This document shows positions 4,715 through 27,851 of a DNA stretch of 64,000 bases, piece by piece. The notes under the pieces were generated by a model. That model had not been told where the DNA came from and did no database searches. It worked only from the letters and a program-made list of their open reading frames with translations. This DNA is from an uncultured Pseudomonadales bacterium. Lineage in GTDB: Bacteria > Pseudomonadota > Gammaproteobacteria > Pseudomonadales > Azotimanducaceae. Every line of letters starts with the position of its first letter. Within the stretch, counting starts at the first letter, position 1. A program made the translations under genes and the position numbers. The stretch covers positions 1,472,132-1,536,131 of the forward strand of contig OY282519.1 in assembly GCA_958296405.1 (NCBI GenBank), written 5' to 3'.

Positions 4715-4724
4715 GGGGGCAATC

Positions 4725-5345: not shown

Positions 5346-5403
5346 CGGCAAGACGCCTTAGAGCGCAGTCAAGCAGCCCTAACAGATGGAGGATGGATTG
5401 ACC

Positions 5404-6402: not shown

Positions 6403-6432
6403 AGCGCGTACCCGCGGGAAGGACCACCTCCA

Positions 6433-7208: not shown

Positions 7209-7232
7209 CATTCATTGTAAGGGAGATCGCCC

Positions 7233-7599: not shown

Positions 7600-9051
7600 C
7601 TAGTACCCAGGCGGCGGCGTGAACGCGAAGCCTTCGGCTTCGAGCAGTTTGGCGAGGCCGATGGTCTTCAAGTCTCCATATTCGGGGCCGATGATCTGCA
7701 CGCCGATGGGCAGCCCCTCGGCGCTGGGTCCGGTCGGGATGACGGTGGACGGCAGATAGCTGCATATGGCCAAGCCAGCCCAGAACACTTGCTCGAAGTA
7801 GGGGCGCTCGGCGTTGTCCACCATCAAGGTGCGTTCGCCGAACGGGCGATGATCGTGCGGGAACGCCGGCGTCGCCATGATCGGCGCGATGAGCGCGTCG
7901 TAGCGCCCGAAGAACTCGCGCCACTTCCAGCGCAGCAGCGTGCGCGCCTCATTGGCGGCGGAGTAATCCCGGTATGTTGCCACTTGGGCACGGAGCGTCC
8001 TGGCGCGGTCGCTCACATCGTCCAGCGCCAGCCCGCGGGCCTCTTCTTGCAACGCTCGATACACGTTGTCTGGCTGGCGCGACATCATCACCGCCTGCAG
8101 GAGCGTCTGGTAGGTGCCGAACGCGCCGCGTCCGTCGAAGTCTTCGGGGGTGGCGTCGAAGTCCGCCTGGCCACCGGCGGCGACGATGGCGTCCGCCACC
8201 GCAGCGATCCGCCCTTGGGTCTCTTGGGTCACGGGCGCCATGTCGTGGCTGGCCCAGCAGGCGACGCGGTACTGCCCTAAGCGCGAGTGTTGCGGGCCAC
8301 GCAGCCGCAGCGCGTAGCCCTCGCCCATGATCTCGTCTGGCCCCGCCATCGCGTGAACGCCGAGCTCCAAATCTTGTGCGCCGCGCCCCAGCGGCCCGAT
8401 CACCGATAGATCGGATTGGGACAAGACGCCCGGCAGCGCATGGCCGCGCGGCGGCAGCAGGCCCCAAGTGGGCTTGTGGCCGAAGACGCCGCAGAAGTGG
8501 GCAGGATTGCGGATGGAGCCGCCGATGTCCGAGCCAGACTCAAAGCCCGTCAGCCCCGCCGCCAACGCCGCGGCCGAACCGCCGGATGATCCGCCGGGCG
8601 TGCGCTCGACGTTCCAAGGGTTGTTGGTGACGCCGTAGATGTCGTTGTAGCTCTGGAAATCCGCCAAGTTGAGCGGCACGTTGGTTTTGCCGAACAGCAC
8701 CACGCCGGCGGACTTGAGGCGCTGCACGGACAGCGCGTCTTGGCTCGGCACGTTGTCCTTGAGCGGTGAATTGCCCCAAGTGCTTGGCAGCCCAGCCACG
8801 TCGTAGGATTCCTTGATGGTCATGGGCACGCCGTGCAGCGGCCCCCACGTCTCGCCCTTGGCGAGGGCCGCATCGGCTTCCCGCGCCCGTTGCCGCGCCC
8901 GCTCCTCGTCCATCACGATGATCGCGTTGAGTTTGGGATTGAACTGTGCCACGCGCTGCAAATAGCCGTCCAAGAGCTCCTCGCTGCCAACTTCATTGGT
9001 TTGAATCATGGCCGCGAGCTCGGCGGCTGTCTTGAATGTGATGTCATCCAT
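7600..9051 (-). CDS. Amidase (amidase signature family)
   Basis: This 483-residue enzyme belongs to the amidase signature family, which hydrolyses amides with a Ser-cisSer-Lys triad. Lys80 (GVPMTIKES), cis-Ser155 in TPGGSSGGSAAALAAG and the nucleophile Ser179 in DIGGSIRNPAHF are all present, so it should be active. The substrate cannot be told from sequence; it lacks the GatA context (no gatB or gatC nearby), so a catabolic amidase is more likely than a tRNA amidotransferase subunit. It converges on the phage fragment and is divergent from the hydroxyacid oxidase gene. Confidence 0.9.
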   Translation of the reverse strand: MDDITFKTAAELAAMIQTNEVGSEELLDGYLQRVAQFNPKLNAIIVMDEERARQRAREADAALAKGETWGPLHGVPMTIKESYDVAGLPSTWGNSPLKDNVPSQDALSVQRLKSAGVVLFGKTNVPLNLADFQSYNDIYGVTNNPWNVERTPGGSSGGSAAALAAGLTGFESGSDIGGSIRNPAHFCGVFGHKPTWGLLPPRGHALPGVLSQSDLSVIGPLGRGAQDLELGVHAMAGPDEIMGEGYALRLRGPQHSRLGQYRVACWASHDMAPVTQETQGRIAAVADAIVAAGGQADFDATPEDFDGRGAFGTYQTLLQAVMMSRQPDNVYRALQEEARGLALDDVSDRARTLRAQVATYRDYSAANEARTLLRWKWREFFGRYDALIAPIMATPAFPHDHRPFGERTLMVDNAERPYFEQVFWAGLAICSYLPSTVIPTGPSAEGLPIGVQIIGPEYGDLKTIGLAKLLEAEGFAFTPPPGY

Positions 9052-9223
9052 GTGTCGTGCGCTCCAAAGGCGTGCAAGTCGAGGCGTTAGCTTCGCAGTT
9101 TACAATGGCGGCGTCGCGCAAAGACACGCTTGACTGATCGCTTCAGCCGCATGCGGGCCCATCGGCGCCGTGTCGACGAACTGGGCGAAGACGGCGTTTG
9201 TGTTGAACGCGCAAGGAGACGCC

Positions 9224-10354
9224 ATGAGGGACTTCCGCACCATCCACGAGATCGCCAAGGCAGCGCGCCATCAGCTGGACGACAACCTGTGGGACTATGT
9301 GCTCGGTGGCGCCGATGCCGAGGCGGCGCTGCGGCGCAACCGGCTTGCCCTCGATGCGCTGCAATTCAAGCCTCGCGTGCTGAACGATGTGTCGAACGTC
9401 GCCACCGCCACGACGTTCCTCGGCAAGGCGATGCGGCTGCCGGTGGTGTTGGCGCCCCTCGGCTCCACGCAGGACTTGGCGCCGGGTGGCGGCGTCGCGG
9501 CGTGGGCCGCGGCGCAGACGTTCGGCGCGGCGATGCTGCTGAGTTCCGCCTCCCAGCCGGATTTTGAGGCTGTCGCCGCGGCGCCGGCGCCAATCGCGCC
9601 CGGCGCCGCCGAGTTTCCCCCGTGCCGCGTCTATCAACTCTATCTCGTTGGTGACGAGGCGTGGATGGACGACATCATCGAACGCGCCATCGCCGCCGGC
9701 TACGATGGCTTCTGCCTCACGGTGGACACCGCCGTTTACAGCCGCCGCGAGCGCGACATCGCCAAGCGCTATGTGCCGTCCTCTGGGCGGCGCGCCGATG
9801 GCGGCGCGTTCGGCAGCCGCGGCGCCGTGGATTTCCACGCCCAAGCCCGCATGACTTGGAAGACCGTGGAGCACATCAAAGCCAAGTTCGACATTCCGCT
9901 CGTCTTGAAGGGCATTCAACGCGGCGATGATGCGGCGCGCGCCGTGGCCTGTGGCGTGGAGGTGGTCTACGTCAGCAACCACGGTGGCCGCCAGCTCGAC
10001 CATGCCCGCGCCGGCATCGATGCGTTGCCGGAAGTGGTTGCCGCAGTCCAGGGCGAGGCCACCGTGATCGTTGATGGTGGCTTCATGCGCGGGGCGGATG
10101 TCGCCAAGGGGCTCTGCCTCGGCGCAGACCTTGTGGGCATGGGGCGTGTGCCGGCGTTGGCGCTGGCCGCCGGCGGCGACGCCGCGGTGGTGCGCGCGTT
10201 GGAGCTGGTGGAAGAAGAGCTGCGCATCGTGATGGCGCTGCTCGGCGCCGCGCGCCTTGAGGACTTGACGGCCGAACTCGTCGAGCCGGCAACGCCGTTG
10301 CCCGGCGACGGCAAGCCGTTGACAGACCTGCCGCTCATCGCAGAAGGCTACTGA
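9224..10354 (+). CDS. FMN-dependent alpha-hydroxy-acid oxidase/dehydrogenase
   Basis: The product is a roughly 376-residue TIM-barrel flavoenzyme of the lactate oxidase/glycolate oxidase family, oxidising 2-hydroxy acids to 2-oxo acids. Visible are the FMN-site lysine in IPLVLKGIQ, the catalytic His-Arg pair in VSNHGGRQLD, and the C-terminal FMN phosphate loop around IVDGGFMRGADVAKGLCLGAD. AAGGAG at 9213-9218 lies 5 nt from the chosen ATG; an in-frame GTG at 9170 is less likely. No membrane segment is seen, so a soluble oxidase is more likely than a quinone-linked lactate dehydrogenase. Substrate unknown. Confidence 0.87.
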   Translation: MRDFRTIHEIAKAARHQLDDNLWDYVLGGADAEAALRRNRLALDALQFKPRVLNDVSNVATATTFLGKAMRLPVVLAPLGSTQDLAPGGGVAAWAAAQTFGAAMLLSSASQPDFEAVAAAPAPIAPGAAEFPPCRVYQLYLVGDEAWMDDIIERAIAAGYDGFCLTVDTAVYSRRERDIAKRYVPSSGRRADGGAFGSRGAVDFHAQARMTWKTVEHIKAKFDIPLVLKGIQRGDDAARAVACGVEVVYVSNHGGRQLDHARAGIDALPEVVAAVQGEATVIVDGGFMRGADVAKGLCLGADLVGMGRVPALALAAGGDAAVVRALELVEEELRIVMALLGAARLEDLTAELVEPATPLPGDGKPLTDLPLIAEGY

Positions 10355-10381
10355 GCCTTAAGGCAAGGCTCGGCTACGGGG

Positions 10382-10714
10382 CTACGGCCCGCCTTTCTTT
10401 GGCACTGGCATGGGGAACGGCATGACGTTCTGGCCAGCCGAATCCGTGATCTTCGCGGTGCCTTCCTTCTCCACCTCGTCGATGCGGACGATGGCGTGCA
10501 TGGGGATGAAGCTGCGCTGCACACCGGAGAACTCGTTGCGCAGCTTGTCCTCCGCGGGGTCGATCACCATCTTCGCCTTCTCGCCGAAGATGTAATCCTC
10601 AATTTCCACGAAGCCATACAGGTCGCTCTGGTAGATCGAGTGCGCGTACACCTCGTAGATCTGCCCAGCGTTGTGGAAGTGGATGCGGTAGATGTTGCGG
10701 TTGCTGTCTGCCAT
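10382..10714 (-). CDS. DUF1820 family protein
   Basis: A 110-residue protein starting [20 protein letters not shown] matches the DUF1820 family, small soluble proteins of unknown function common in gammaproteobacteria. Typical features are [20 protein letters not shown] and [19 protein letters not shown], with a proline/lysine-rich end. The frame is open further upstream, but the family starts at this Met. The conserved middle suggests a small beta-rich fold. It lies downstream of the HEPN-type gene on the same strand, 124 bp apart, with no sign of a shared function. Confidence 0.85.
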
Positions 10715-10838
10715 GACACCGTTATACGGGCATGGCGCCAGCCTTTCAAGGTCGGGTTGGGGACGCAATGCTTGGATGCCGGGCCGATGCGCGGCCGCGG
10801 CATGGCCGAGTTCCGTCGCCGCCACGCTCCGCCATCCA

Positions 10839-11525
10839 TCAAGGGTCGGCGCGGTCAAGCACCGGATACGGCGGCAGCCCCCAAGGGACGGCTGGATGGT
10901 CCATCATCAAGTCGATGAAATGGGGCACCAAGAAGGCCAGAATCTCGGTGCCTTGGCGCACTTGCTCGCGGTTCACGCTGCCCTTCCAGGTGGCGCCCCC
11001 GTGCATGAGCTGGTTGCGCAGCACATAGAGCCGGCTGAAGAGCACTTCGAGCACACCGGCGGTGTTGCCGTGGCCAAGCGCCTTCTTCGCGTATCGCAGC
11101 TGTCTATCGAACCGCTCCCTCCAATCGGCGCAACCCTCCTCGCCGTGATGGAAGCGCCAGAACGGCTCAAACACGAATCGGTTGTTCAGGAAGTTGCGGA
11201 TGGAGCCGGCGAAGCGCATCCAGATGGCGTCATAGACCACCCGCCCGCGGTCGAGTTCCACGATCGTCTTGAAATACCACTCGAAGAACTCTTGTGCGGA
11301 GAACTGCCTCGTGAGGTGCGCGGGTTGCGAGTAGCAGGCGTTGAAGGCCACCCAGTAGGAAACGAACGCCAAGTCCTCGTCTTGCCGAGCCATCGCCAGC
11401 TCCCCGGCTTGCACCCAACTGATGGCTCGATGCACCCGCAGCGCCACCGGCTGCGGGAACTGGCTGCGCCGGCGGCGTTCCTTGTCTTGCAGAGCCGCGT
11501 GGCGAAGGGCTTCGTTGTCACCCAT
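10839..11525 (-). CDS. HEPN-domain protein, possible RNase
   Basis: The 228-residue, mainly helical product contains [20 protein letters not shown] near its C-terminus. R-N-x3-H is the RX4-6H motif of HEPN domains, which in many toxin and phage-defence proteins is an RNase site. An upstream segment ([11 protein letters not shown]) fits the paired helix of this family. I chose MGDNEALRH as the start since upstream codons are unlike protein; the ATG at 11525 is the first good candidate. It has no adjacent antitoxin-like MNT gene. It could be an Apea-like HEPN protein; the activity is inferred from the motif alone. Confidence 0.65.
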
Positions 11526-11717
11526 CGGAGTGGAATCGGGGCCAGATCGAGTGCTCCCCAGTATCGTAACGCCATCGCCGCGAGCCACGCTAGGCGGAGG
11601 CCAGCACGGCATGGTTCGCGCCACCCCCGGCGCTGTGCTTCAATGGCTCATCGGCGTTGTGGCGGTTGCGCCCACGCCGCCGAAAGGGGCGCGTGGCCCC
11701 ACGTTGGGAGCGAGCAG

Positions 11718-13115
11718 GTGGAAGGATTCAAGCTCTACATCAAAACTCACGGCTGCCAGATGAACGTGTACGACTCGTCGCGCATGGCAGACCTCCTGCG
11801 TGAGCGTTGCGGCGCTGCCTTGGTGGAGGCGCCGGAAGAGGCGGACGTGCTGCTGCTCAACACCTGCTCCATCCGCGACAAGGCGCAGGAGAAAGTGTTT
11901 CACCAGCTCGGCCGCTGGAAGCCCATCAAGGCGCACCGTGAGGGCGTGCTCATCGGCGTGGGCGGTTGCGTCGCCAGCCAAGAAGGCGCGGCCATCGTCG
12001 CCCGGGCGCCGCAAGTCGATGTGGTGTTTGGGCCGCAGACGCTGCATCGTCTGCCGGAGCTGTTGCGCCAAGCGCGCCAAAACAGCGGCCCAGCCATCGA
12101 CGTGAGCTTCCCGGAAATTGAAAAGTTCGATGCCCTGCCGCCGCCCGGCGTGACTGGCCCGGCCGCGTTCGTGTCCATCATGGAAGGCTGCAGCCGCTAC
12201 TGCACCTTCTGCGTGGTGCCCTACACGCGCGGCGAGGAAGCGAGCCGGCCCGTGGCGGATGTGATGCGGGAAGTCATCGGCTTGGCCGAGCAGGGCGTGC
12301 GGGAGATCAACTTCCTGGGCCAGAATGTGAACGCCTACCGCGGCGCGATTGATGAAGGCCACGCAGACCTCGCCGAACTCATCCACTACGCCGCCGAAAT
12401 CGACGGCATCGACCGCATTCGCTTCACCACCTCCCACCCCGCCGCCTTCACCGATGCGCTCATCGACGCTTACCGCGAGGTGCCGCAACTGGCGAGCCAT
12501 CTGCATCTGCCCGTGCAATCCGGCTCAGACCGGGTGCTTGCGGCCATGAAGCGCGGCCATACGGCGTTGGAATACAAGGACAAAATCCGCCGCCTGCGCG
12601 CCGCGCGGCCCGACATTGCTCTCTCTTCAGACTTCATCGTCGGCTTTCCGGGCGAAACGGAGCAGGATTTCGAGGACACCTTGGCGCTGGTGCGGGAGAT
12701 GGACTACGACATCTCCTTCAGCTTCATCTACAGCCCGCGCCCCGGCACCCCCGCCGCCACCCAGCCAGACCCCACGCCGTTGGCGGTGAAGCGCCATCGG
12801 CTGGCCATCCTGCAGGATCAACTGCGCCGCCAAACGGCAGCCCATGCGGAGGCGATGGTGGGGCGCGTGGAACGGGTGCTGGTCACGGGGCCTTCCAAGC
12901 GCGACCCCGGCGAACTGCAGGGGCGCACGGAGAACAATCGCGTCGTGAACTTTCGCGCCAGCGGCGATGCACCGCGCGACGCCTTCGCCGATGTGCGCAT
13001 CGTGGAAGCGCTGCCGAACTCGCTGCGCGGTGCGCTCGTGGATGCCGCCGCGCGCCGGCGGCGCGTTGACAGCGAAGCGATGCCCGATATGCTAGGGCAC
13101 CCGGCAGGAGCTTGA
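11718..13115 (+). CDS. miaB: tRNA-2-methylthio-N6-dimethylallyladenosine synthase
   Basis: MiaB is a radical-SAM methylthiotransferase that adds the 2-methylthio group to i6A37 of tRNAs, using two [4Fe-4S] clusters. The N-terminal UPF0004 domain has its cluster cysteines in KTHGCQMN (C13), [11 protein letters not shown] and VGGCVAS. The radical-SAM motif CSRYCTFC is at C158, C162 and C165, and a C-terminal TRAM-like domain follows. The GTG start is supported by GGGAG 7 nt upstream; 465 residues is the usual size. It leads the conserved miaB-phoH-ybeY-corC-lnt cluster. Confidence 0.96.
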
Positions 13116-17226: not shown

Positions 17227-17261
17227 CGCAAGGACTAGGGCGAGCGTAGTTTGGTGTCCTA

Positions 17262-17285
17262 TCGCCCATCAGGTCGCCCATCAGG
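17262..17285 (+). repeat. Perfect tandem 12-mer at the left edge of the island
   Basis: TCGCCCATCAGG occurs twice without a spacer in the gap between lnt and the methyltransferase gene. The surrounding 257 bp contain no gene. Short duplications at an insertion boundary can be target-site scars, but I found no second copy at the right side of the island, so this may be simple slippage. Confidence 0.5.
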
Positions 17286-17451
17286 GCCGCGTTGCGGCTG
17301 GATGTGCTACGCTCCGCGGCCCCGGTGTGCGTGAAAGCTAGGCGGATCGGATGTGAACGCAATCAATGCCGATTGCAGGCCGCGTCCGAACACGAAGCGA
17401 CGGGAGAACGGACATGACGCGACGGAAGAAACGCCGGAGCTCAACCCGTGT

Positions 17452-17471
17452 TACTGTATGTACAAACAGTT
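17452..17471 (+). promoter_or_regulatory. LexA-box-like operator before the methyltransferase operon
   Basis: TACTGTATGTACAAACAGTT matches the gammaproteobacterial LexA consensus CTGT-N8-ACAG, with an AT-rich centre and flanking TA/TT. It ends 12 bases before the GTG start of the methyltransferase gene, where a bound repressor would block transcription. I see no strong sigma-70 hexamers around it. If real, the operon would be induced by the SOS response. LexA itself is not in the window, so the assignment rests on sequence match alone. Confidence 0.55.
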
Positions 17472-17483
17472 TAGGCTCCCAGT

Positions 17484-20400
17484 GTGAACGTAGGGCCCAC
17501 TACCCGGCCGCTTGACGAAGACTGGAAGGGCGTTCTAGGGCTGAACGCCCGTCGTCCGCCGGAGCTCTACTCGGACGCCGCGGCCGTAGGCAATGTGCCT
17601 CATGCTTGGCCTATACGAACGGCCCTGCGCGATTTTGGTGCCGATTCCGTGTTTTGCATCCAAGACGTGCCCACTGCCGTGTTCTTCGCAGCTGATGAGG
17701 CGGAACCGGCGGACATCGCCCCCCTGCACTCGAACCTGTGGAATCAGGGCCTCGCCACCGTCCTCGCTATCGTCTGCGGCGACACCATCCGCATCTACTC
17801 CCTCGCCGCCATGCCACCGGACCGGCAGCGGAACAGATTGGACGACCATTGCCTCGTTGAAGTACTGCACAAGGTCGAAGACGCCATCAGGGTGCGCAGC
17901 CTAATCCACGGCATGGAATCTGGCCGCTATTGGCTGGAACACGACGACAGGTTCAACCCCGAACTGCGTGTGGATGGCGCGTTGCTCGGCAATCTGAAGG
18001 GATCCGACAGCCGGCTGCAACAGTTGGAATTGCCGCCAGGGGCGTCTCAAGCCATTTTGATGCAGACGATGTTCATCGCCTACTTGGAAGACCGGAATGT
18101 CATCGGCGCCAACTACATCAAGGATGCTACAGGTCGCAAGTTCTCCACCTTCGGCGACATCTTAAGAATGCAAGAAGTGACAGCCTTCTACGCCTTGTTC
18201 CGCAGCCTCAACCGGACCTTCAATGGCGACTTGTTCGTAAAGCCCTGTTCGTTTGGCAGCGCTGGGCCGAGACTCCTACGCAAACACTTGTCGACATTGG
18301 CGGACTTCCGTGCGGGCATGTACGAGATGGGGCCGCACGCGGATCAAGGACGCCTTTGGGCATATGACTTCAAGTTCATCCCGGTGGAGTTGATCAGCGC
18401 CGTATACGATCAGTTCCTCAGTACCGAGGATCAGGCATCAAAGGGCCAGTTCCACACGCCAATGCACCTCGCCACCAGCGTGGTTTCGCAGTTGTGGGAC
18501 GATAATCCACAGTTCCTCACCCAACGCGCCAAGACGCACGGCACGATCCTCGACCCCGCTTGCGGGTCGGGCATCTTCCTCGCTTGCCTTTTCAAGCGGC
18601 TCTGCGAACAGTGGCGGCAAAGCAAGGGCACGAATAAGATACGGTGGCCCCGCCTGCGTAACATCCTGCACCAGCTAACCGGCTTCGACATAGACGAGAG
18701 CGCCGTCCGCGTAGCCATCTTCTCGCTCTACATCGCCCTCTTGGAAGAAGTGGACCCACCGGACATTCGCAAATTGATGGCGCGCAGCAGGTTGCTGCCG
18801 CCCCTTTGGGGAGTCACGCTGCACAATGCCAACTTCTTCAACGTGGAAACCAGCTCTCAATACGACGTGGTGATCGGCAATCCACCGTGGCGAAGCGGAG
18901 ACCGACATGCCACGTCGTGGTGCGCTGAACACCGCCTGCCGGTGCCAGACAAACAAGCCGCATGGGGTTTCGTGTGGAAGGCGGTGCGGCATCTCAAGAA
19001 AGATGGCAAGATTGCGTTCTTGCTGCCGGCGAAGCCGTTCCTGCACAACCACGCCCAGAACGCCGTCTCGGCAAGAGGCCGGCTCCTGCGGCAGTTCCGC
19101 GCGGAGCGCATCGTCAACTACGCGGACCTGCGTTTCCAGCTCTTCGGGAGCGCTGTTCAACCTGCCGCGCTGTTCATTGGCGGCAAGAATCACGGTGACG
19201 AACCCTATTGGTTTCACTACTGGGTGCCGAAAACGGACCCTAGCTTCGGCGCGGCCGGTGTCCTGACCACCAACGAGTTGGATAAGAAGCGGCTCGACAC
19301 AATCGAGCTCGTGAAAGACCCCCTCCTGTTCAAGAAACGTCTGTGGATGACCGGACCGGAAGACAAACTCTTCAGGTACCTTGACAGGTACACGCCACTC
19401 CGCGACACCGTGAAGCTGTATCGTGATGTGAGAGGGCAAGAAGCTGCACCGGATGCCTGGGTCATAGGCCAAGGGCTGAAGCCTGCAAACCCCGACCGTG
19501 TGGATGACCCCACCTATGACACGGTGGCTGACAATATTGCTGGTGACATACTAGCGATGCCGTTCATGCCATCCGGTGCATTCCGCATATTCTCGCCTAA
19601 CACGCATGCGCTAGTTCCGTTCACGCACGCAAAGCTCCATCGTAGCGGGTTCGTGCGCGGCTTCAAGGGACCCCGAGTACTTGTCCCGCAGGGCGCAGGT
19701 CCTGAACGGTTGCGCGCTGCCTACACCGAAACGGCGTTCACGTTTCGGCATGCGATTCAGGCAATCGTCGTACCAAAGTCGGATGCATTTCGTGCCAAGT
19801 TGCTCGCCGCGCTGCTCAACAGCAAGCTAATGTTCTGGTTTGCGTTCCACGCATCGTCCTCCATTGGCAGCGAACGGCCCGCCGTTCACGAGAGTGAGTT
19901 ACTCAATTTGCCTTTCCCGGATCCAAGGGACACGCCGGAGCCGGACCGAGCGCACTTGGCAGCGTCCGAGGCGGTAGCCTTGATGGACGAAGCGACTCGA
20001 CGACTTGACGCTACGATGCAGCCGTCCGATCTCTTGGGCGGGGAGGCGGAAATATCCGTACGCGGGAGCATCCAGGAACTATTTAGGCGCCTGGACGTTC
20101 TCGTGTACGACTATTTCTGCCTCTCCGACGAAGAGATTATGGTTGTAGAGGACACTATCGAGTTCGTTGTGCCGGCGGTGCAACCGCGAAGCACAGTTCG
20201 GAACCTGAAGATCTGGGAAAAAACCAACCACACTCGGCGGCGGGTTTACGCCGATGTGTTGATCAAAGCCTTGGCCGACTGGATGGAACCCGAACGGCGC
20301 GTTGCCGTCGCCCTCGTTGCCTGCAACGAGGACTGCGCGGTGGTTCGGCTGCGGCTTTGCTCGGAGGAGGACTGGGTGGAGTACGCTGAGCCGCTTGGAG

Positions 20401-20594
20401 ATGTTGGCGCGGCCTTAACGCGCGTTGCGAAGGCCGCCACCGAGGTGCTTCCCGGCAACCTACAGCAGGTACCCAATCTACGGGTCTATGACGGTGATGA
20501 TCTGTACTTGGTGAAGCCGAACAAGCTGCGGTTCTGGACGCGCTCGGCGGCGCTGGCGGATGCCGAGGAGATCGTGGTTGACCTCTGGCAATGA
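17484..20594 (+). CDS. Large N6-adenine-type DNA methyltransferase (type IIG/Eco57I-like)
   Basis: The 1036-residue product carries methyltransferase motif I DPACGSG (357-363) and catalytic motif IV NPPW (466-469), the order of gamma-class N6-adenine methyltransferases. The lead-in EDQASKGQFHTPMHLATSVV is typical of R-M enzymes of this class, and a large C-terminal region likely recognises DNA. The N-terminal 150 residues resemble a decayed HsdR-like domain; I see no D...ExK, so nicking or cutting may come from the next gene. The start is a GTG with a poor ribosome-binding site, just after a LexA-like box. Base composition is visibly less GC-rich than the flanks. It is not PglX-like in neighbours (no brx genes). 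Confidence 0.82.
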   Translation: MNVGPTTRPLDEDWKGVLGLNARRPPELYSDAAAVGNVPHAWPIRTALRDFGADSVFCIQDVPTAVFFAADEAEPADIAPLHSNLWNQGLATVLAIVCGDTIRIYSLAAMPPDRQRNRLDDHCLVEVLHKVEDAIRVRSLIHGMESGRYWLEHDDRFNPELRVDGALLGNLKGSDSRLQQLELPPGASQAILMQTMFIAYLEDRNVIGANYIKDATGRKFSTFGDILRMQEVTAFYALFRSLNRTFNGDLFVKPCSFGSAGPRLLRKHLSTLADFRAGMYEMGPHADQGRLWAYDFKFIPVELISAVYDQFLSTEDQASKGQFHTPMHLATSVVSQLWDDNPQFLTQRAKTHGTILDPACGSGIFLACLFKRLCEQWRQSKGTNKIRWPRLRNILHQLTGFDIDESAVRVAIFSLYIALLEEVDPPDIRKLMARSRLLPPLWGVTLHNANFFNVETSSQYDVVIGNPPWRSGDRHATSWCAEHRLPVPDKQAAWGFVWKAVRHLKKDGKIAFLLPAKPFLHNHAQNAVSARGRLLRQFRAERIVNYADLRFQLFGSAVQPAALFIGGKNHGDEPYWFHYWVPKTDPSFGAAGVLTTNELDKKRLDTIELVKDPLLFKKRLWMTGPEDKLFRYLDRYTPLRDTVKLYRDVRGQEAAPDAWVIGQGLKPANPDRVDDPTYDTVADNIAGDILAMPFMPSGAFRIFSPNTHALVPFTHAKLHRSGFVRGFKGPRVLVPQGAGPERLRAAYTETAFTFRHAIQAIVVPKSDAFRAKLLAALLNSKLMFWFAFHASSSIGSERPAVHESELLNLPFPDPRDTPEPDRAHLAASEAVALMDEATRRLDATMQPSDLLGGEAEISVRGSIQELFRRLDVLVYDYFCLSDEEIMVVEDTIEFVVPAVQPRSTVRNLKIWEKTNHTRRRVYADVLIKALADWMEPERRVAVALVACNEDCAVVRLRLCSEEDWVEYAEPLGDVGAALTRVAKAATEVLPGNLQQVPNLRVYDGDDLYLVKPNKLRFWTRSAALADAEEIVVDLWQ

Positions 20595-21254
20595 TTGCCG
20601 GCGGATAGGAAGATGGTGAACGGTAACGGACGCCGATGGATGGCCGAGTTCCGTCGCCGAGATAGCCTCTTCTTGCGCTGTGTCATTAGGATCTGGCGGA
20701 CGGCAGTCGCGAGGTTGCCGAGCAACCCGGAACCGGAAGAGGACGCGATCACGAAAGCGCTGGTGGACGCATTGGTTGTCGATGAGGTGGCGAGGCGTCG
20801 GTTTTACTGCGACTACAAATTCGTGCCTATCGGGTGGGGGCCTAAAGGCGAGGTGACGGAAGATCAGTACATCGACATGGCCATGATTGTTGGCAACGAC
20901 AGACGTACCTACCTCGCGTACGAGTGCAAGAAGCTGAACGTGCCGCACAAAGACGGTGCGCGACGGTCGCAAGCGGGAGATTATGTCAAGGACGGGATGA
21001 TGCGCTTCGTCACGGAGAAGTACGCGAAAGACCTGCCAATCGGCTGCATGTTGGGCTACGTCATGGATGGTGACATGAAATTCGCTCGTGCAAGCATCAA
21101 CACCGCGATGGTGTCGCGCAGGCCAGCCTTGGGCCTTCAAGGGCAACCAACGGACGTTTCACCCATCGGAGTCGCACGCCGCTTTGTTACGAAGCACGTG
21201 CGCAACACCCGGCGGATGGAGATGCGTCACGCTCTGTTGCCATTTGTAGTGTAG
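20595..21254 (+). CDS. Putative PD-(D/E)XK nuclease, partner of the methyltransferase
   Basis: This 219-residue protein follows the methyltransferase stop with no gap. It has an early acidic helix (NPEPEEDAITKALVDAL), then YIDMAMIV with D94 and YLAYECKKLN with E110 and K112. That D-x15-E-x-K arrangement is the PD-(D/E)XK nuclease signature, with E50 or E49 as the fourth acidic residue. I know of no named family for it. The start is uncertain: TTG at 20595 directly follows the upstream stop, and an ATG at 20613 is also in frame. Together with the methyltransferase it would form a two-gene restriction-modification or defence unit; this is inference from motifs and adjacency. Confidence 0.6.
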   Translation: MPADRKMVNGNGRRWMAEFRRRDSLFLRCVIRIWRTAVARLPSNPEPEEDAITKALVDALVVDEVARRRFYCDYKFVPIGWGPKGEVTEDQYIDMAMIVGNDRRTYLAYECKKLNVPHKDGARRSQAGDYVKDGMMRFVTEKYAKDLPIGCMLGYVMDGDMKFARASINTAMVSRRPALGLQGQPTDVSPIGVARRFVTKHVRNTRRMEMRHALLPFVV

Positions 21255-21287
21255 ACGCGAATGTCTGATGACTAGATGGTTGGGCAA

Positions 21288-21392
21288 TCAAGTATGTAAT
21301 TCTCCATCAATCGGTTCCCCATCAATCGGAACCAGCATGGCTACGGCCAGTTCGATCATCGCTTCGTCGGCAATCTCCGGGATCAGCGTCAT
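21288..21392 (-). CDS. Short reverse-strand frame with a PIDGE repeat, possible gene remnant
   Basis: A 34-codon reading frame encodes MTLIPEIADEAMIELAVAML and then VPIDGEPIDGELHT. It has a helix-like, protein-like composition and an exact five-residue tandem repeat made by two 15-bp units (CCATCAATCGG at 21304-21314 and 21319-21329). The frame extends about 18 codons further upstream without a start. It may be the C-terminus of a lost gene. The rest of the gap between the nuclease-like gene and the next small gene shows nothing else. Confidence 0.25.
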   Translation of the reverse strand: MTLIPEIADEAMIELAVAMLVPIDGEPIDGELHT

Positions 21393-21506
21393 CGCTTGGT
21401 ACCGTCTCAGTTTGAAATTATGACGTAAAACCGCTCTTTCAAGGGAGGCTCAGCCGCTCGATCTCCTTATGTTGTTGTGGTTCCGCAGCAAGCGAGGGGA
21501 GACGCA

Positions 21507-21671
21507 ATGGAACCAATCACGGGAGCGGTCGCGGCGCTGGCCGTCGGCGTGACGGCTGGATGGATTGCCAGAGGGCTGTTCCGCAGTCGGCCGTTTCGGA
21601 CGGAAGGGTGGACACCTGCTTTTCCGCCGAGGGGGGTGAAATACGACTATTCCTTAAACACAACCCCTTAA
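21507..21671 (+). CDS. Small single-pass membrane protein, unknown function
   Basis: A 54-residue product beginning MEPITGAVAALAVGVTAGWI has a good ribosome-binding site (GAGGGGAG at 21494-21501, 5 nt from the ATG). The first 20 or so residues form one hydrophobic helix with a glycine-rich face, followed by a basic stretch (RGLFRSRPFR) and a Pro/aromatic tail, so the C-terminus is probably cytoplasmic. I do not recognise a family. It lies between the nuclease-like gene and the ribbon-helix-helix gene in the island. Confidence 0.5.
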   Translation: MEPITGAVAALAVGVTAGWIARGLFRSRPFRTEGWTPAFPPRGVKYDYSLNTTP

Positions 21672-21675
21672 AGCG

Positions 21676-21681
21676 TATAAT
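21676..21681 (+). promoter_or_regulatory. Consensus -10 hexamer (TATAAT) before the RHH gene
   Basis: A perfect TATAAT sits 27 bp before the first possible start of the ribbon-helix-helix gene. The best -35 at 17 bp spacing is only CTTAAA (21653-21658), so the promoter is weak or activator-dependent. The palindromes downstream would lie in the early transcribed region, a usual place for autoregulation. Confidence 0.45.
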
Positions 21682-21707
21682 ACCACGAGGTTGGCGGTTC
21701 ATTGACT

Positions 21708-21977
21708 ATGCCACTCAGTACGCAACTGAGTGAGCCATGTGGCATACTCTGCGCAGAGTCGCTGCCGGACACCGAAATGCTTAGGCGCACTGCCTTTCCA
21801 GCCCGATTTGGCTTCGCCCTGTCGGATGAACTGAAAGCGGCAATCGAACGGGAATCGGAAGCGGACGGCATCTCCGCAGGCGATTTAGTCCGCGAAGCCG
21901 TCGAAGCCGACCTGCCCAGGCGCAGGGAACGCAGACGCAAGCGCGGACAACGCGGCGGAAGGGGGAACGGCGCATGA
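21708..21977 (+). CDS. Ribbon-helix-helix (CopG/MetJ-like) small DNA-binding protein
   Basis: The core RFGFALSDELKAAIERESE, then ADGISAGDLVREAVEADL, has the spacing of ribbon-helix-helix proteins: a short strand, a helix, a turn at DGIS and a second helix. A strongly basic tail (RRRERRRKRGQR) follows. Such proteins are often antitoxins or plasmid copy-control repressors. The start is uncertain: the first ATG gives 89 residues, but an ATG at 21777 gives 66 residues starting MLRRTAFPARF, closer to family size, and would leave the palindromes in the leader. No toxin gene of a known family follows. Confidence 0.6.
   Translation: MPLSTQLSEPCGILCAESLPDTEMLRRTAFPARFGFALSDELKAAIERESEADGISAGDLVREAVEADLPRRRERRRKRGQRGGRGNGA
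21713..21759 (+). promoter_or_regulatory. Pair of palindromes sharing ACTC/GAGT half-sites, candidate operator
   Basis: ACTCAGT-ACGCA-ACTGAGT (21713-21731) and the perfect 14-bp palindrome ACTCTGCGCAGAGT (21746-21759) have related half-sites. Their centres are about 30 bp apart, close to three helical turns, so dimers could bind on one face. A shorter GCCA/TGGC repeat lies between. They sit between a TATAAT and the likely translation start of the ribbon-helix-helix gene, as expected for an autorepressor site. Confidence 0.5.
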
Positions 21978-22114
21978 CAGAGAGCGCCCGCGAGGTTCAC
22001 ATGTCAACGGAACAACTCGGAGCGAGTGAGGCTCATTGGCACAATTATTTGCGCCACATCGGGTACATCGATTACATCAAAGCGCACGGTGTCGACGACG
22101 AATGTGGTTGGTAA
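21974..22114 (+). CDS. Small protein of unknown function, possibly the broken 5' end of the next frame
   Basis: A 46-residue frame starts with ATGA overlapping the ribbon-helix-helix stop and reads MTESAREVHMSTEQLGASEA, then HWHNYLRHIGYIDYIKAHGV and DDECGW. It has a plausible helix and many His/Tyr. It ends at a TAA, but the same frame continues open to 22543 after that stop. Either it is a separate small gene, or a nonsense change has split a gene of about 190 codons. No family recognised. Confidence 0.45.
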   Translation: MTESAREVHMSTEQLGASEAHWHNYLRHIGYIDYIKAHGVDDECGW

Positions 22115-22138
22115 GGGAGGAGGCCACCCATCTGGCAG

Positions 22139-22543
22139 GTGGTATGTGAAATCGGCGATCATCCCGCTTGGCAATTGGAATGTGAGCATGGAATCAGAGG
22201 CTGCCGGTACGGGGGTGATTACGACTACACCCATTCGACGGAGACGTTTGATAGTCCGAGAAAAGGGACGTTAGGCCCCCGATGGTCATACCACATTCGC
22301 GTTGCGCTTGAGCGATTACCTGATTGCTCGATCTGTCGGGACAACGCCGAGAGGTGGCACTCCAAGAAGCACCGCAAGTTGGAAGCCGATAATTGGAAGG
22401 CCAGCAGAGCCGTGAAATGGGCGGCCCGAAAAGAAAAGCTGACAGGTTGGCTTCGGCGATCATGGAAGAAAGCGCTAGCGGGGGTGTTGTTGTCGCTTGT
22501 GATTTCGCTTGTGTTCACTGAGCTAGTGGCCGTGTGGCTTTGA
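22139..22543 (+). CDS. Cys-rich protein with a C-terminal membrane helix, unknown function
   Basis: The 134-codon frame (GTG start) has Cys/His clusters (VCEIGDH, ECEHGIRGC and DCSICRD, a possible zinc site), a basic Lys/Arg/Trp-rich middle, and a C-terminal hydrophobic helix ALAGVLLSLVISLVFTELVA. It is in the same frame as the preceding 46-codon gene, separated by one TAA. A very strong GGGAGGAGG (22115-22123) lies right after that stop, but 15 nt from this GTG, so the true start may be a non-standard codon nearer it. C-terminal anchoring would place the Cys-rich part in the cytoplasm. Confidence 0.4.
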   Translation: MVCEIGDHPAWQLECEHGIRGCRYGGDYDYTHSTETFDSPRKGTLGPRWSYHIRVALERLPDCSICRDNAERWHSKKHRKLEADNWKASRAVKWAARKEKLTGWLRRSWKKALAGVLLSLVISLVFTELVAVWL

Positions 22544-22618
22544 TGTCCATGTACGGCAAACCCATCACGCAAGGGACTGGCTCGCCGCCATCCCCGGATT
22601 GAAGGTGGTCGGCTCCGA

Positions 22619-22975
22619 ATGGTTGGCCCATGTCCGCTTTGCGGCGGCGAGGATCGCTTTCGCGTCTCCCAGCACGGCGTGTTCTGCCGCCAGTGCCTGC
22701 CGGACGGGGAAAACCGCGAGCGGTGCAAGGAAACTTCTGCATGTTGCCTTCAGTCTCACCAGCCGCATGCACCGCCGAACCAGAACACGGCGCTTATGCT
22801 TCAACGCTCACGCGGGCCGCGCAAGGGGCGCAAATTGGCGTTCCGGGTGCTGGCGGAAGGCGAGGCGGCGCTGTCCGTGGCGCGGGCGTTCAAGGAGCGA
22901 CATGAGAGGGTCGCGTCGGGCCTAGGATGGCGCGTCCGAAGCGGTACAGGTAGCTCATCGATTGATGTCCATTAA
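22619..22975 (+). pseudogene. Fragment with a primase-type zinc finger joined to a recombinase-like tail
   Basis: The first 30 residues, MVGPCPLCGGEDRFRVSQHG followed by VFCRQCLPDG, match the CHC2/Zn-ribbon start of phage P4-type primases (CPxCGGxDRFR ... FxCRQC). The rest of a primase is absent. The later part, GRKLAFRVLAEGEAALSVAR, resembles the C-terminal helix-turn-helix entry of serine recombinases. A composite of two mobile-element remnants in one frame is the simplest reading; no ribosome-binding site is convincing. It marks decay of an integrated element inside the island. Confidence 0.45.
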
Positions 22976-23229
22976 CGCATTGATTTCATTGCGTTTTCTG
23001 GGCTTCCATCAAGGGCAATGTACCACTCGCTCTTCCTCACTTCCGTGATGCTTGCGGCCTTGTCGATTGGGCATCCTGCCAGCGCCCGCAGGCCGGCGGG
23101 CGCTGGCATCACAGGTCAATGCGGCTCGCAGTTCGCTCCGAACCCACATGGAGGCGAGCGATTTGACCGGGAGAGGCAGGACGTTGGCCGTTGTCGATGC
23201 TCGACCGAGACTAGCTGCTGCTTTTGTTC
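22976..23229 (+). other. Non-coding stretch before the XRE-nuclease gene
   Basis: No gene with a ribosome-binding site or family features is seen here. It holds the 32-base hairpin described separately and otherwise mixed-composition sequence. In particular there is no HigB-type toxin frame upstream of the HTH-bearing gene, where one would be expected for a higBA module. Confidence 0.5.
23077..23108 (+). repeat. Perfect 13-bp inverted repeat with a 6-nt loop
   Basis: TGCCAGCGCCCGC and its exact complement flank the loop AGGCCG. The stem is very GC-rich and has no following U-run, so an intrinsic terminator is unlikely. It resembles REP-type or transposon-end hairpins. It lies about 120 bp upstream of the promoter of the XRE-nuclease gene and just after the primase/recombinase fragment. 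Confidence 0.6.
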
Positions 23230-23258
23230 TTGACTTGTGTTGCGGTACACAATACAGT
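23230..23258 (+). promoter_or_regulatory. Sigma-70-type promoter with a palindromic operator filling its spacer
   Basis: TTGACT (23230-23235) and TACAGT (23253-23258) are separated by exactly 17 bp. The spacer holds TTGTGT-N6-ACAACA-like arms: TTGTGT (23235-23240) and ACACAA (23247-23252) are exact complements. A dimeric helix-turn-helix protein bound here would block RNA polymerase. The gene downstream starts with such a domain, so autorepression is likely. Predicted transcription starts near 23265, giving a leader of about 26 nt to the GTG at 23291. Confidence 0.65.
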
Positions 23259-23290
23259 GCCTGCAATCGAACGAACTTGGAGACGCGCAC

Positions 23291-26200
23291 GTGCAGCAGA
23301 AACAGACCACGGTCGGCCAACACATACGGGATAAGGTGATCCCGTCGGGCATGTCCGTCAAGGAGGCAGCGGCACGGCTGGGTGTCGGCCGCCCCGCATT
23401 GTCGAACCTCCTGAACGGCAAGGCATCGCTTTCCCCGACGATGGCGCTGCGCCTTGAAAGGGCGTTCGGGGCCGATGGCGATGCGCTTCTGGAAGTTCAA
23501 GCCGCGCACGACAAGGCTCGTCGCCGTGAGGCGGAGAAGGGGGTGGCGGTTCGCGGCTATGTGCCCAGATTCCTGACGATCAAGGCGCGTGACCTCGAGC
23601 ACTGGGCGGACTCCATTAGCGCCCGCGAGCGTCTTCCGGTTCTGCTCCGCAGATTGGTTCACGCGACGGGGCGCGATTTGACACGCGTGGACTTCCCTGG
23701 ATTCGACAACAGCCAACGTCCGGGATGGGATGGCTGGGTGGAGGCGGGCACGGAGACGAGGTGGATTCCAGAAGGGATGTCTGGGTGGGAGTTCGGCACC
23801 TCAAAACGCCCGCGCCAAAAGGCGGAGACCGACTACGGCAGGCGGCTTGCCCTGCCGCTCGAAGAACGGAGACTGTGTACGTTCATATTCGTAACCCCTC
23901 GGAACTGGTCCGGTAAGGACGAGTGGGCGAAGGAAAAGGAAGCCGCGGGCGACGGCTGGAAGGCGGTGCGGGCCTACGACGCCAGTGATATCGAGCAATG
24001 GTTGGATGAGTCCATAGCCGCCCCCGTTTGGCTGGCAGAGATGCTTCCGACGCCGATTGCAGGCGTCAAGACGCTTGAGACGATCTGGAGGGAGTGGGCT
24101 GCCGCGAGCGAGCCTCTGCTGACCAAGAGCATCTTCGAATCCAACATTGCAGTCTGCGTCAAGCCGTTCAAAGAGTGGCTCGAAAGGCCTCCGCAGCTTC
24201 CCTTTGTGGTGGCAGCGGACTCCCAAGACGAAGCGTTGGCGTTCCTCGCTTGCTTGTTTGAGCACGAAGAGATCCCAGCGGCCAAGCGCGACCTAGCAGC
24301 GGTGTTCACGTCCCGAGAGACGTTGACCATGCTGGCCGGGTCATCGTCTCCATTCATCCCGATTGCCGGGAGTGACGTGACCCAAGAGGGTCTTGCCGCT
24401 CTCTACCGACATATGCATTGCATTGCCACATGCCCGCGAAACGCCCATCATCCATCTCGTGATGCCAAGGCGGAGTACTTTGCGCTTGATCTGCTTGGCT
24501 CCAAGGCATTCGAGGACGCGCTTGCGGACATGGGCTTGGAACGGCACGAAGCCGACCGGTTGGCGAGAGAGTCCGGACGATCGCCCACAATCTTGAGGCG
24601 ACGACTATCTCGCATCCCGCACATTGGGACTCCGCGATGGGCTAAGGACACAGCGCTCGCGAGAAGGCTGATTCCGATGTGCCTAGTGGGGGCGTGGCAT
24701 GCCCATAAGAGTGCGGACCAAGAGGTGCTCAGGACACTCGCGGACTGCGAGAAGTACAAGGAAGTCGCACAACATGTCAAGGGTTTGCGGCAACTCGAGG
24801 ACTGTCCAGTTTGGTCGGTCGGCCAGCACAGAGGCGTGACGTCCAAGGTCGACGTGTTGTTCGCTGTCGCGCCATTGATGACTGAACAGGACATCAAAGA
24901 CTTCCTGACGCTCGCTGAGTATGTTCTCTCCGAGTCCGATCCCCGGTTGGAGCTCCCCGAAACCGAGCGCTGGGCCGCTGCCATCCATGGCAAGGTTCGA
25001 GACCACTCTGAAGCGTTACGCAACGGCATTTGCGAAACACTTGTTCTACTGTCTTTGCATGGCGACGGGCTGTTCCGAGAGCACCTTGGCATAGACGTCA
25101 CGGCGCTGGTTTCGAACCTCGTCACTCGTCTTTTGACGCCCCTCGACGAGAAGTTGCCTTCCCAAGAACGCGATCTTCCTGCCTACGCGGAAGCGGCACC
25201 AAGCCGGTTCTTGGAGATATTGGAGCAGGACCTGCGAAAGGACGAGCCCGCTGTCCTCAGCTTGCTCAAACCAGTCGCTGGCCAACCCTTCGTGCGCTGC
25301 CCGCGCGCCGGCCTCTTGTGGGCGCTGGAATGCTTGGCTTGGAACCCAGATGACCTAGCCCAAGTGTGCGTCCTGCTCGCGAGGCTGTCAGGAACGGACA
25401 TCACAGACAACTGGGCCAACAAACCCACTGAGAGCCTCGCCGGCATCTTGAGGTCTTGGATGCCGCAAACGGCCGCCTCCGTAGACGATCGCATTGACGT
25501 GCTGAAGATGCTCGTGAGGCGCTTTCCGGCCATCAGTTGGCGACTGTGCTTGGACGAGATCAGGGCGGGGCCTCGCTTGGGAGCGGGCAACTATCGACCG
25601 CAGTGGCGCAGCGACGCAGCAGGTGTCGGCGGAGTGGCGTCGGAACGTGATTTCGAGGTGTTCATGCGGTGCGTCGCGTCGGTGTTGCTGGGCTGGCCCG
25701 ATCACAATCAGGCGACCCTTGGCGATTTGGTCGAGCATGTAGACCAGATCGAAAAGCTGCTCGGACACGCGCAATCCTCTGTTTGGGAACTGATAGATGA
25801 TTGGGGACGGGGCGAAAACGACGATGAGGCTAAGGCCGAACTTCGCGAACGAATCCGCCTTTTCGCTCTCACCAGGAGGGGGCGTCGCAATCTTCCAAGC
25901 ACGAACGACAAAGCTCGACTCGCATACGAGAGCCTTCAGCCTCGCGCGCCGGCAGTTCGTCACGCTTGGCTCTTTGCCAACAGTTGGGTTGAAGATTCCT
26001 GGGCCGAAATCGAAGACGAAGAACTCGATTTGAGGGCGAGAGACGCCAAGGTCGACGACCTTCGCCAAGCAGCAATGAGGGAGATATGGGAAGCTGACGG
26101 CCTTGCCGGCGCACTGACTATGGTGAAGAACGGAAGCGACGGTTTCACCGTGGGGCGCTATGTGGCGCTCTGCGCAACTGATTCGGCGGGCGTTCTAAGG

Positions 26201-27367
26201 GAGTGCCTCTCTAGCGAAGTCAACGTCGCCGAATTCGATGCGTTCATGCGGGCGTTCATCAGTGCGCACGCCGATTTCTCCGGTTCTGAGCTGTTGCTAG
26301 ATGTCTCGCAGCAGGTTGGCTATGAGCAGTCGGTGCGTCTGTGGCGCTGTGCACCGTTCCAAGCGAAGACTTGGCGGATGATGGATCATCTGCCTGCGGA
26401 CGTGCGAGACGGCTATTGGCGCACGGTCTCGCCCGATCGTTGGAGACTCGCAGAAGCGGAGTGTACGGAGATCGTTGATCGGCTCCTCACCGCCAAGCGC
26501 CCGTACGCAGCGTTCAATGCGATGATGTATCAGTGGGAGCACGTCGAGACTGGCTGCCTCAAACGGCTCTTGATGGATCTCGTATCTGGCAACGGTGTAC
26601 CGGAAGATGCGGTCCCGATCGAGTCTTGGCATGTGTCGAACGCACTGGAAGCGCTACAGGCGCGTCCCGGTAAGACGTTACAGGAGATGGCCAGACTGGA
26701 GTTCGCCTTCATCGAGGCGCTGGGCGACCATAGCGAACACGGAATCCCAAATCTCGAACGTCTGATCGCGAAATCGCCTAGCTTTTTTGTTGAGATGCTC
26801 TCTCACTGTTTTGAACGCGGGGATGGCGGCCAAGATCCGGCAGAGTGGCGGATCGTAGATCCGGAGCGCCGGCAAGTGATGGCGAGGCGTGCATACAGTC
26901 TCCTACGTCAAGCTGCTCGAATTCCGGGAACGGATGCCAACGGGGCGATACAGGTGAACCATCTGTTGCATTGGCTCAAACAGACGCGAGAGCTCTGTGC
27001 AAAAGTCGGTCGGGCCGGGATAGGAGACCATATGATCGGTCAGCTTCTCTCGAAGGCACCTCCAGACGGCGATGGTGTATGGCCATGCCATGCAGTCTGC
27101 GAAGCCTTGGAGACGGTGGCTTCCACGGACATCCAACAAGGTTTCGCCGTTGGCAAGTTCAATTCCCGTGGCCCTTACTTCCGTAGGATCGACGAAGGGG
27201 GCGATCAGGAGCGGGAGCTCTCTGCACGGTATCGACGCTGGGCACAACAGCGGATTGACTATCCTATTGCCAGCAGGGCTATCAATAGGATCGCGGATGC
27301 CTACGACGACGATGCAATGTTTGAGGATGGGCAAGACACGTTGCGCAAGCGCTTGGACAATTTGTGA
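23291..27367 (+). CDS. XRE/HigA-type HTH fused to a nuclease-like domain and a very long helical region
   Basis: The 1358-residue product starts at a GTG with GGAG 8 nt upstream; an in-frame GTG at 23237 lies inside the promoter and is rejected. Residues about 8-65 are a HigA/XRE helix-turn-helix (SVKEAAARLGVGRPALSNLL). Residues about 95-250 look like a PD-(D/E)XK-type nuclease: PGWDGWVEAG (D147), WEFGTSK (E167), lysines 172 and 177, then FIFVTPRNWSGK and VRAYDASDIEQWL. The usual E-x-K is E-x-G here, so a shifted lysine or loss of activity is possible. The remaining 1100 residues are largely helical and show no Walker A motif. The family is unnamed to me; context and architecture suggest a self-repressed defence or addiction protein. 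Confidence 0.65.
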   Translation: MQQKQTTVGQHIRDKVIPSGMSVKEAAARLGVGRPALSNLLNGKASLSPTMALRLERAFGADGDALLEVQAAHDKARRREAEKGVAVRGYVPRFLTIKARDLEHWADSISARERLPVLLRRLVHATGRDLTRVDFPGFDNSQRPGWDGWVEAGTETRWIPEGMSGWEFGTSKRPRQKAETDYGRRLALPLEERRLCTFIFVTPRNWSGKDEWAKEKEAAGDGWKAVRAYDASDIEQWLDESIAAPVWLAEMLPTPIAGVKTLETIWREWAAASEPLLTKSIFESNIAVCVKPFKEWLERPPQLPFVVAADSQDEALAFLACLFEHEEIPAAKRDLAAVFTSRETLTMLAGSSSPFIPIAGSDVTQEGLAALYRHMHCIATCPRNAHHPSRDAKAEYFALDLLGSKAFEDALADMGLERHEADRLARESGRSPTILRRRLSRIPHIGTPRWAKDTALARRLIPMCLVGAWHAHKSADQEVLRTLADCEKYKEVAQHVKGLRQLEDCPVWSVGQHRGVTSKVDVLFAVAPLMTEQDIKDFLTLAEYVLSESDPRLELPETERWAAAIHGKVRDHSEALRNGICETLVLLSLHGDGLFREHLGIDVTALVSNLVTRLLTPLDEKLPSQERDLPAYAEAAPSRFLEILEQDLRKDEPAVLSLLKPVAGQPFVRCPRAGLLWALECLAWNPDDLAQVCVLLARLSGTDITDNWANKPTESLAGILRSWMPQTAASVDDRIDVLKMLVRRFPAISWRLCLDEIRAGPRLGAGNYRPQWRSDAAGVGGVASERDFEVFMRCVASVLLGWPDHNQATLGDLVEHVDQIEKLLGHAQSSVWELIDDWGRGENDDEAKAELRERIRLFALTRRGRRNLPSTNDKARLAYESLQPRAPAVRHAWLFANSWVEDSWAEIEDEELDLRARDAKVDDLRQAAMREIWEADGLAGALTMVKNGSDGFTVGRYVALCATDSAGVLRECLSSEVNVAEFDAFMRAFISAHADFSGSELLLDVSQQVGYEQSVRLWRCAPFQAKTWRMMDHLPADVRDGYWRTVSPDRWRLAEAECTEIVDRLLTAKRPYAAFNAMMYQWEHVETGCLKRLLMDLVSGNGVPEDAVPIESWHVSNALEALQARPGKTLQEMARLEFAFIEALGDHSEHGIPNLERLIAKSPSFFVEMLSHCFERGDGGQDPAEWRIVDPERRQVMARRAYSLLRQAARIPGTDANGAIQVNHLLHWLKQTRELCAKVGRAGIGDHMIGQLLSKAPPDGDGVWPCHAVCEALETVASTDIQQGFAVGKFNSRGPYFRRIDEGGDQERELSARYRRWAQQRIDYPIASRAINRIADAYDDDAMFEDGQDTLRKRLDNL

Positions 27368-27447
27368 AGGTGCTTCTTGACACCTGCGTGACAGCGGAAG
27401 TCCGCCACAGTAACGCGGAACTTAAAGCCACGGTCATAGGCTACAGA
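27364..27447 (+). pseudogene. 5' remnant of a VapC-like PIN-domain toxin gene
   Basis: GTGA overlaps the stop of the giant gene, and the frame reads VKVLLDTCVTAEVRHSNAEL, the N-terminal strand and first catalytic Asp (LLDTC) of VapC-type PIN toxins. After about 28 codons the similarity stops and the frame runs on as Arg/Cys-rich nonsense to 27594. The remaining catalytic acids of a roughly 130-residue PIN domain are missing, so no active RNase is expected. The overlap suggests the intact toxin was once translated by coupling to the giant gene. Confidence 0.55.
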
Positions 27448-27851
27448 ATGTGCCCCCGACGGGCTTGCCCTTTGGGGCTACGCCTCCAATCGCGCTCGAA
27501 GGGCCCCAAGACTGACCGAAGGATGCGATGGGTTGGCCTGCATCCTGATGTTGGCGATTGCTCCGGTGACGGCTGCCGGAGAGAACTCGCATGAGAACGT
27601 AAGGGTTCCTGACGAGGACGAGCGGTGTCGTCGGTCCGCAATGCCGCCGAGCAGGGCGGCGCGGCCGCGCAGTTTCAACCTAGGGGCCATGTGCGGCGTC
27701 GGCGAGGGCGTCCCCGAGGACGAAGGGTGCTTTTCCTGAGCGCAGTCCTGTTAAACTGCGGGGGAACTCGACAATCGCCGTGCGGCCGAGGATGCTCGAT
27801 GGTGATAGGCTGTGGACTCGGCGGCGGAGCACACGACAGGGAGCACACCCC
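27448..27851 (+). other. Gene-poor gap at the right end of the island
   Basis: I see no supported gene here. Features are an imperfect GGGGC/GCCCC repeat near 27475-27510 and a short CGCAGT-N8-ACTGCG inverted repeat near 27740-27760. Several forward and reverse frames are open, but all are Arg/Ala/Gly-rich and lack ribosome-binding sites. The composition returns to that of the chromosome, so this may be the right boundary of the island. Confidence 0.4.

Follow-up and report, generated by a model that had tools for sequence, protein, structure and literature searches.

Avs proteins are built in the order nuclease, STAND domain, sensor. The PD-λ-4 system is credited to Vassallo et al. 2022 and placed under P-loop NTPases in an excerpt of PMC10952713. 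Vassallo et al. (PMC9519451) state that plaquing in MG1655 fell with each of their 21 systems; a search of that text for the name PD-λ-4 found nothing. Inactive STAND domains with lost Walker motifs are described for BREX BrxB and PglW in passages of PMC12839542. CR.NsoJS138I, a C protein-REase fusion, is according to passages of PMC3850674 a Type II REase of PvuII specificity whose C part activated a reporter, and the fusion was shown to be active as both regulator and nuclease. HigA antitoxins are small and have HigB as their partner, and excerpts of PMC6987408 report for PaHigA a palindrome in its own promoter, TTAAC-GTTAA.

Here we compare with these systems a giant protein encoded in the window, which is the whole 64-kb stretch of DNA analysed. 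Like CR.NsoJS138I, it has a regulatory HTH fused to a nuclease, here a candidate one; unlike CR.NsoJS138I, it carries a HigA-type HTH, a P-loop-less STAND-like domain and a solenoid, and repression is expected. Its predicted STAND-like fold without Walker A resembles the STAND domains with lost Walker motifs of the defence proteins BrxB and PglW; it differs from them in architecture, and the present family is not described in those passages.

Gene, Promoter, and Domain Architecture

The coordinates of the gene and its surroundings are collected in Table 1. The initial annotation had described a TTGACT-17-TACAGT promoter with a TTGTGT/ACACAA palindrome in its spacer, and both the coordinates and the exact arms were confirmed. 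The −35 element occupies 23230-23235 and the −10 element 23253-23258, with a 17-nt spacer as read from the sequence, and the arms (23235-23240 and 23247-23252) form an exact inverted repeat with 6 bp between them. A 6-bp inverted repeat is by itself unremarkable; the promoter palindrome is more than chance because it is conserved in homologues. Eight nucleotides separate the end of GGAG from the GTG start codon. The reading frame is already open from 23237, which gives a longer ORF, but homology begins only at residue ~8-9.

Table 1. Positions of the features discussed, numbered from the first letter of the window.
Feature	Position	Strand	Remarks
Variable island holding the giant gene	17234..27718		no blastn match in G405, a close relative
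Neighbour, type IIG-like restriction-modification protein	17484..20594	+	PADLOC REase_MTase_IIG, E 4.4e-74
Sigma-70-like promoter TTGACT-17-TACAGT	23230..23258	+	read from sequence
26-bp palindromic operator TGACTTGTGTTGCGGTACACAATACA	23231..23256		overlaps −35 and most of −10
GGAG, likely ribosome-binding site	23279..23282	+	read from sequence
Whole gene, 1358 aa	23291..27367	+	GTG start; stop 27365-27367
HigA-type XRE helix-turn-helix, residues 1-94	23291..23572	+	HTH_3, TIGR02607 profiles
Candidate PD-(D/E)XK nuclease, residues 111-229	23621..23977	+	predicted αβββαβ core; D147, E167, K177, D181 invariant
AAA+/STAND-like α/β domain without Walker A, residues ~255-445	24053..24625	+	predicted models
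Predicted β-hairpin, residues 507-516	24809..24838	+	AlphaFold2 C-terminal model, model residues 68-77
Helical solenoid, putative sensor, residues ~517-1358	24839..27364	+	AlphaFold2

Profile search of the giant protein gave 38.3 bits against HTH_3 and 50.6 bits against the HigA model TIGR02607 (cut-off 47.7), in agreement with the earlier statement that the gene begins with a HigA/XRE HTH. The order in the models is HigA HTH, αβββαβ nuclease-like core, AAA+/STAND-like fold without Walker A, and helical solenoid; the middle fold and the helical part behind it are both present in predicted models, and the AlphaFold2 mean pLDDT for residues 440-1358 was 83.3. The helical region of roughly 1100 residues that had been proposed therefore needs shortening: residues ~255-445 are modelled as an α/β NTPase-like domain, whereas helices are predicted from there to the end. 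The β-hairpin may form the wing of a winged-helix domain.

The PD-(D/E)XK-like block of the initial annotation is a candidate nuclease. The four residues named in Table 1 are invariant in 34/34 homologue rows, and the predicted secondary-structure order, together with the positions of D147 and E167, fits an αβββαβ core that has its acidic residues on strands 2 and 3. The Lys of E-x-K, however, is not there, residue 169 being G in 31 of the 34 rows, S in two and T in one; its role may fall to K177, which is invariant and lies on the following helix. No nuclease was matched in this part by sequence profiles in PDB or Pfam, and structural comparison hardly covered residues 97-250 by themselves; the nuclease fold is therefore proposed from topology and conservation. 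Walker A was absent from residues 250-430 in all 34 homologues, as the claim of a long part without a P-loop had it, and was seen outside these residues in one of them (L057). Judged from its sequence, the giant protein is not a STAND NTPase as defined by the P-loop.

Relation to Described Systems

The Foldseek top match for residues 1-480 was Avs3 (8dgc; E 7.1e-5), with a TM-score on the query of only 0.26. The likeness to Avs3 consists of this match and the nuclease-STAND-sensor order, whereas the window protein lacks Walker A, carries a fused HTH, and is 1358 residues long, the matched chain having 2028. Distant homology to PD-λ-4 A extends over 937 columns (hhalign against three PD-λ-4 A proteins, 99.4%, E 3.8e-21, 15% identity), in which the P-loop of PD-λ-4 A aligns with VVAADSQDEALAF of the window protein. 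The three aligned proteins have a nuclease-like N-terminus, common to the window protein, and a Walker A middle; they keep Walker A and have no fused HTH, while the window protein is the reverse. The PADLOC PD-Lambda-4_A model was unmatched by the window protein up to E 1 and was matched by 11 of 25 homologues at E ≤0.1 (best 5.5e-5). As modelled by PADLOC, the giant protein is not a PD-λ-4 A member. The initial annotation had spoken of a system that it could not name; the matches narrow this to the Avs/PD-λ-4 neighbourhood, although neither the PADLOC PD-Lambda-4_A model nor Walker A is found in the protein. It plausibly works like PD-λ-4 A and STAND NTPases.

PD-λ-4 A also occurs beside family members. 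At L056, where the family gene is identical in DNA to E. coli genomes, PD-λ-4 A stands divergent beside an HTH-less member (3676-7524 and 7992-11735), and the two genes match 151 and 204 of 5426 E. coli genomes, respectively. In R. leguminosarum (L040) and R. gallicum (L045), the plasmid member is followed closely by a PD-λ-4 A-like gene downstream; at the other loci scanned, a PD-λ-4 A neighbour was not found.

The window HTH had no Control_protein match up to E 1 and passes the HigA model instead. Its likeness to HigA comprises the score above the HigA cut-off, HigA fold matches of the model and a palindrome in its own promoter. It differs in being one domain of a 1358-aa protein, and the PaHigA palindrome differs in sequence from the window operator.

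Promoter Operator and Proposed Self-Regulation

The window operator matches the clade consensus at 22/26 positions. A PWM trained on eight homologue sites, leaving out the window and L007, L011, L042, L043, and L075, gave it 31.1 bits and rank 1 in 64 kb, compared to 12.2 for the next best place and 17.3 for the top score among 20 block-shuffled windows. In a leave-one-out PWM test, run without L042, 13/13 sites came first in their own loci (23.5-44.6 vs. 0.4-19.0 for the best others). These tests leave out the window or each site, with the sites themselves located using the by-eye consensus. That consensus, TGTATTGTGTAGCGCTACACAATACA (operator A), is matched at ≥19/26 in 13 of 14 HigA-type members and at ≤15/26 in 22/22 other members, counts that are not independent, since the consensus had been derived by eye from these very promoters, the window's among them. 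L042 has the HTH, yet reaches only 13/26 at the operator. In the 3.83-Mb own genome, the pattern TTGTGT-N6-ACACAATACA with ≤2 mismatches has a single location, which is matched from both strands. Since sites rank first both with the homologue PWM and when left out, autoregulation of the giant protein via its promoter palindrome is well supported. For a protein that joins an HTH to a nuclease-like part and has a conserved operator of its own, a repressor and an effector in one chain, as initially proposed, is the best reading.

Among 20 stand-alone HigA loci, a clear related palindrome was seen in L028 (27.8 bits) and a weaker one in L031 (19.0), which makes a link of operator A with higBA operators no more than suggestive. 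Where the HTH is of a second XRE type, C-protein-like, the members have another palindrome, GTCATATATTTCATATGAC, near the start codon; it is present at ≥17/19 in 5 of 11 such members and at ≤12/19 in 25/25 non-members. The other six second-type members lack it at ≥17/19, one of them reaching 15/19.

Family Distribution and HTH Heads

Residues 97-1351 match phrog_18693, a phage protein family of unknown function (E 1.6e-119, 401 bits, profile 4-1251 of 1258), and by this profile the body of the giant protein is that uncharacterised family. A 34-row tree was made from the core without HTH columns, with SH-aLRT support only and a midpoint root. The 11 HigA-type rows formed one group (support 100), as did the 11 second-type XRE rows (support 100), among which L052 has a degenerate HTH. 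One Arthrobacter row carries an HTH_17/MerR-like HTH, and two rows (L054 and L053) have long branches. Control_protein (PADLOC) was matched by 9 of the 25 rows of alignment A1. Homologues without the HTH, which the initial annotation had named beforehand as evidence against its proposal, do occur family-wide (11/34 rows) but not in the protein's own clade, where 11/11 rows carry one. Because of these HTH-less rows and the other HTH types elsewhere in the tree, repression would be an added module, with the HTH lying outside the family core. As the HTHs are of differing families, the simplest account is that of three captures or swaps; given the two long branches and a root placed only at the midpoint, HTH losses may also have occurred.

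In an even draw from the phylum, 13/398 genomes matched, own included, with some matches being short pieces. In a set of 58 genomes made up of relatives and the own genome, the large part was found in the own genome and in G404 (L020), of the same genus, where the copy is split between two frames; the remaining listed matches fall in the HTH range, with one, in G441, given as residues 11-176. The own genome holds no second copy of the large part, its two further matches being HTH only. On plasmids, 77 records matched, 17 of them over ≥80% of the query and many of the remaining being HTH-only; 34 of the 77 were typed conjugative, HTH-only matches counted in. The HTH-less member matched in E. 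coli was found with ≥80% of the gene in one place in 125 genomes, and all of its matches were chromosomal (231/231 places). The 25 matches listed were all annotated as hypothetical protein, and 17 of them were in pieces with IS elements between.

Other arrangements of the body were also seen. Six viral-contig members (L058-L062, L071) share the same C-terminal ~890 residues, but their N-terminus ('NPFSTGGGG...') differs and may be a nuclease of another type; if so, this would mean effector swapping on one sensor body. A shorter member (L063:7902-10721) aligns from residue ~455 and starts with 'SGAGHNIARDLYI', and its frame has no nuclease or NTPase part.

Genomic Setting

G405, the closest relative, whose lnt protein is 97% identical, holds 4.7 kb of other sequence at the island site, and the G+C of the island (17401-27500) is 59% vs. 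65% for the window. Compared in this way, the site is one that holds variable cargo. At the same site, G405 encodes a 1091-aa protein (L113:3085-6360) that reads as leucine-rich repeats with a HEVGH motif. Upstream of the giant gene stands the type IIG-like neighbour; in the stretch 17484-21254, the gene immediately after it encodes a 219-aa protein for which no family match was convincing. A small CopG-like RHH protein lies at 21702-21977 (20.2 bits, slightly below the Pfam cut-off of 20.5). The ORF at 22619-22975 has CPLC...FCRQC cysteine pairs of the kind found in primase-like zinc fingers, and is a possible mobile-element remnant.

At nine HigA-type loci, 6 of 20 large neighbours had a PADLOC hit at ≤1e-5, namely DpdF (L042), BovA (L043), two methyltransferases (L074), an OLD/NsnB-like ATPase (L073), and a weak PDC-M03A match (L116). 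Seventeen plasmid loci were fetched, 14 of them with annotation, and by reading of the annotations a defence-type gene was named in the fetched flank of 7 of these 14: a restriction endonuclease (one locus), AbiEi/AbiEii (three), type I RM (one), SIR2 with an abortive-infection protein (one), and a Shedu-domain protein (one). The defence-island setting that was to be checked finds defence-type neighbours at several copies and a mobile site in its favour, whereas 14/20 scanned neighbours had no PADLOC hit at ≤1e-5. Enrichment of family copies near defence genes is an impression.

Discussion

We regard the giant protein as probably a single-gene, self-limited (scarce, self-repressed) immune nuclease of the Avs/PD-λ-4 neighbourhood. 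Its N-terminal HigA-type HTH would bind the conserved 26-bp palindrome over its own −35 and −10 elements and repress transcription. The C-terminal solenoid would recognise an invader molecule, as the Avs-like architecture suggests, and the P-loop-less STAND-like domain, given the absent Walker A, may act as a structural hub and not as an ATPase. Recognition would then let the PD-(D/E)XK domain, proposed from its invariant residues and predicted fold, cut the DNA of the invader or of the cell. Repression and the nuclease are both inferences with good support. The HTH most simply would keep the protein scarce, and a role as activation switch is not needed.

Such a switch is nevertheless conceivable, with operator or partner binding holding the nuclease off until invader recognition frees both. 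The single chain and its conserved operator fit this, and HigA antitoxins are described, in excerpted sources, as masking their own toxin and repressing their own promoter; HTH-less members exist, however, and therefore the core can be controlled without the HTH, which leaves the switch somewhat doubtful. An addiction or exclusion protein of a plasmid or island, acting on incoming DNA or stabilising its own replicon and not directed against phage, would agree with the plasmid matches, the conjugative records among them, and the ParA/ParB genes beside one HTH-less member. The family is also chromosomal, both in the window and for the E. coli member, and defence-type genes are among the neighbours at several copies, and we consider this role unlikely. 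It seems more improbable still that the protein is a transcription regulator only, with its nuclease-like and NTPase-like parts as degenerate ligand-sensing modules and the HTH as output. The missing Walker A, the shifted Lys, and the annotation of several plasmid members as 'helix-turn-helix transcriptional regulator' would suit it, but the 11 HTH-less rows still have D147, E167, and K177, and the operator pattern searched has no second place in the own genome at ≤2 mismatches.

Taking the immune-nuclease reading further, we tentatively suggest, as a speculation that may well not hold, that a P-loop-less Avs-like nuclease lineage repeatedly captured DNA-binding heads (HigA-type, C-protein-like XRE, and HTH_17/MerR-like), the HigA-type with the matching promoter palindrome and the second partly so. 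The outcome would be immune systems of a single gene each. Operator occupancy and nuclease state would be coupled, and the activated protein would leave its promoter, so that invader recognition would raise its own expression.

The locus bears on the question of how bacteria restrain immune nucleases that could kill them. One effector body bears HTHs of differing types in distinct regions of the tree, and two of these types each have a promoter palindrome of their own (for the second, in about half its members), which amounts to a natural swap experiment. A family of 'unknown function' is now placed beside Avs and PD-λ-4 and, being matched in E. coli, can be tested in laboratory strains of that species.
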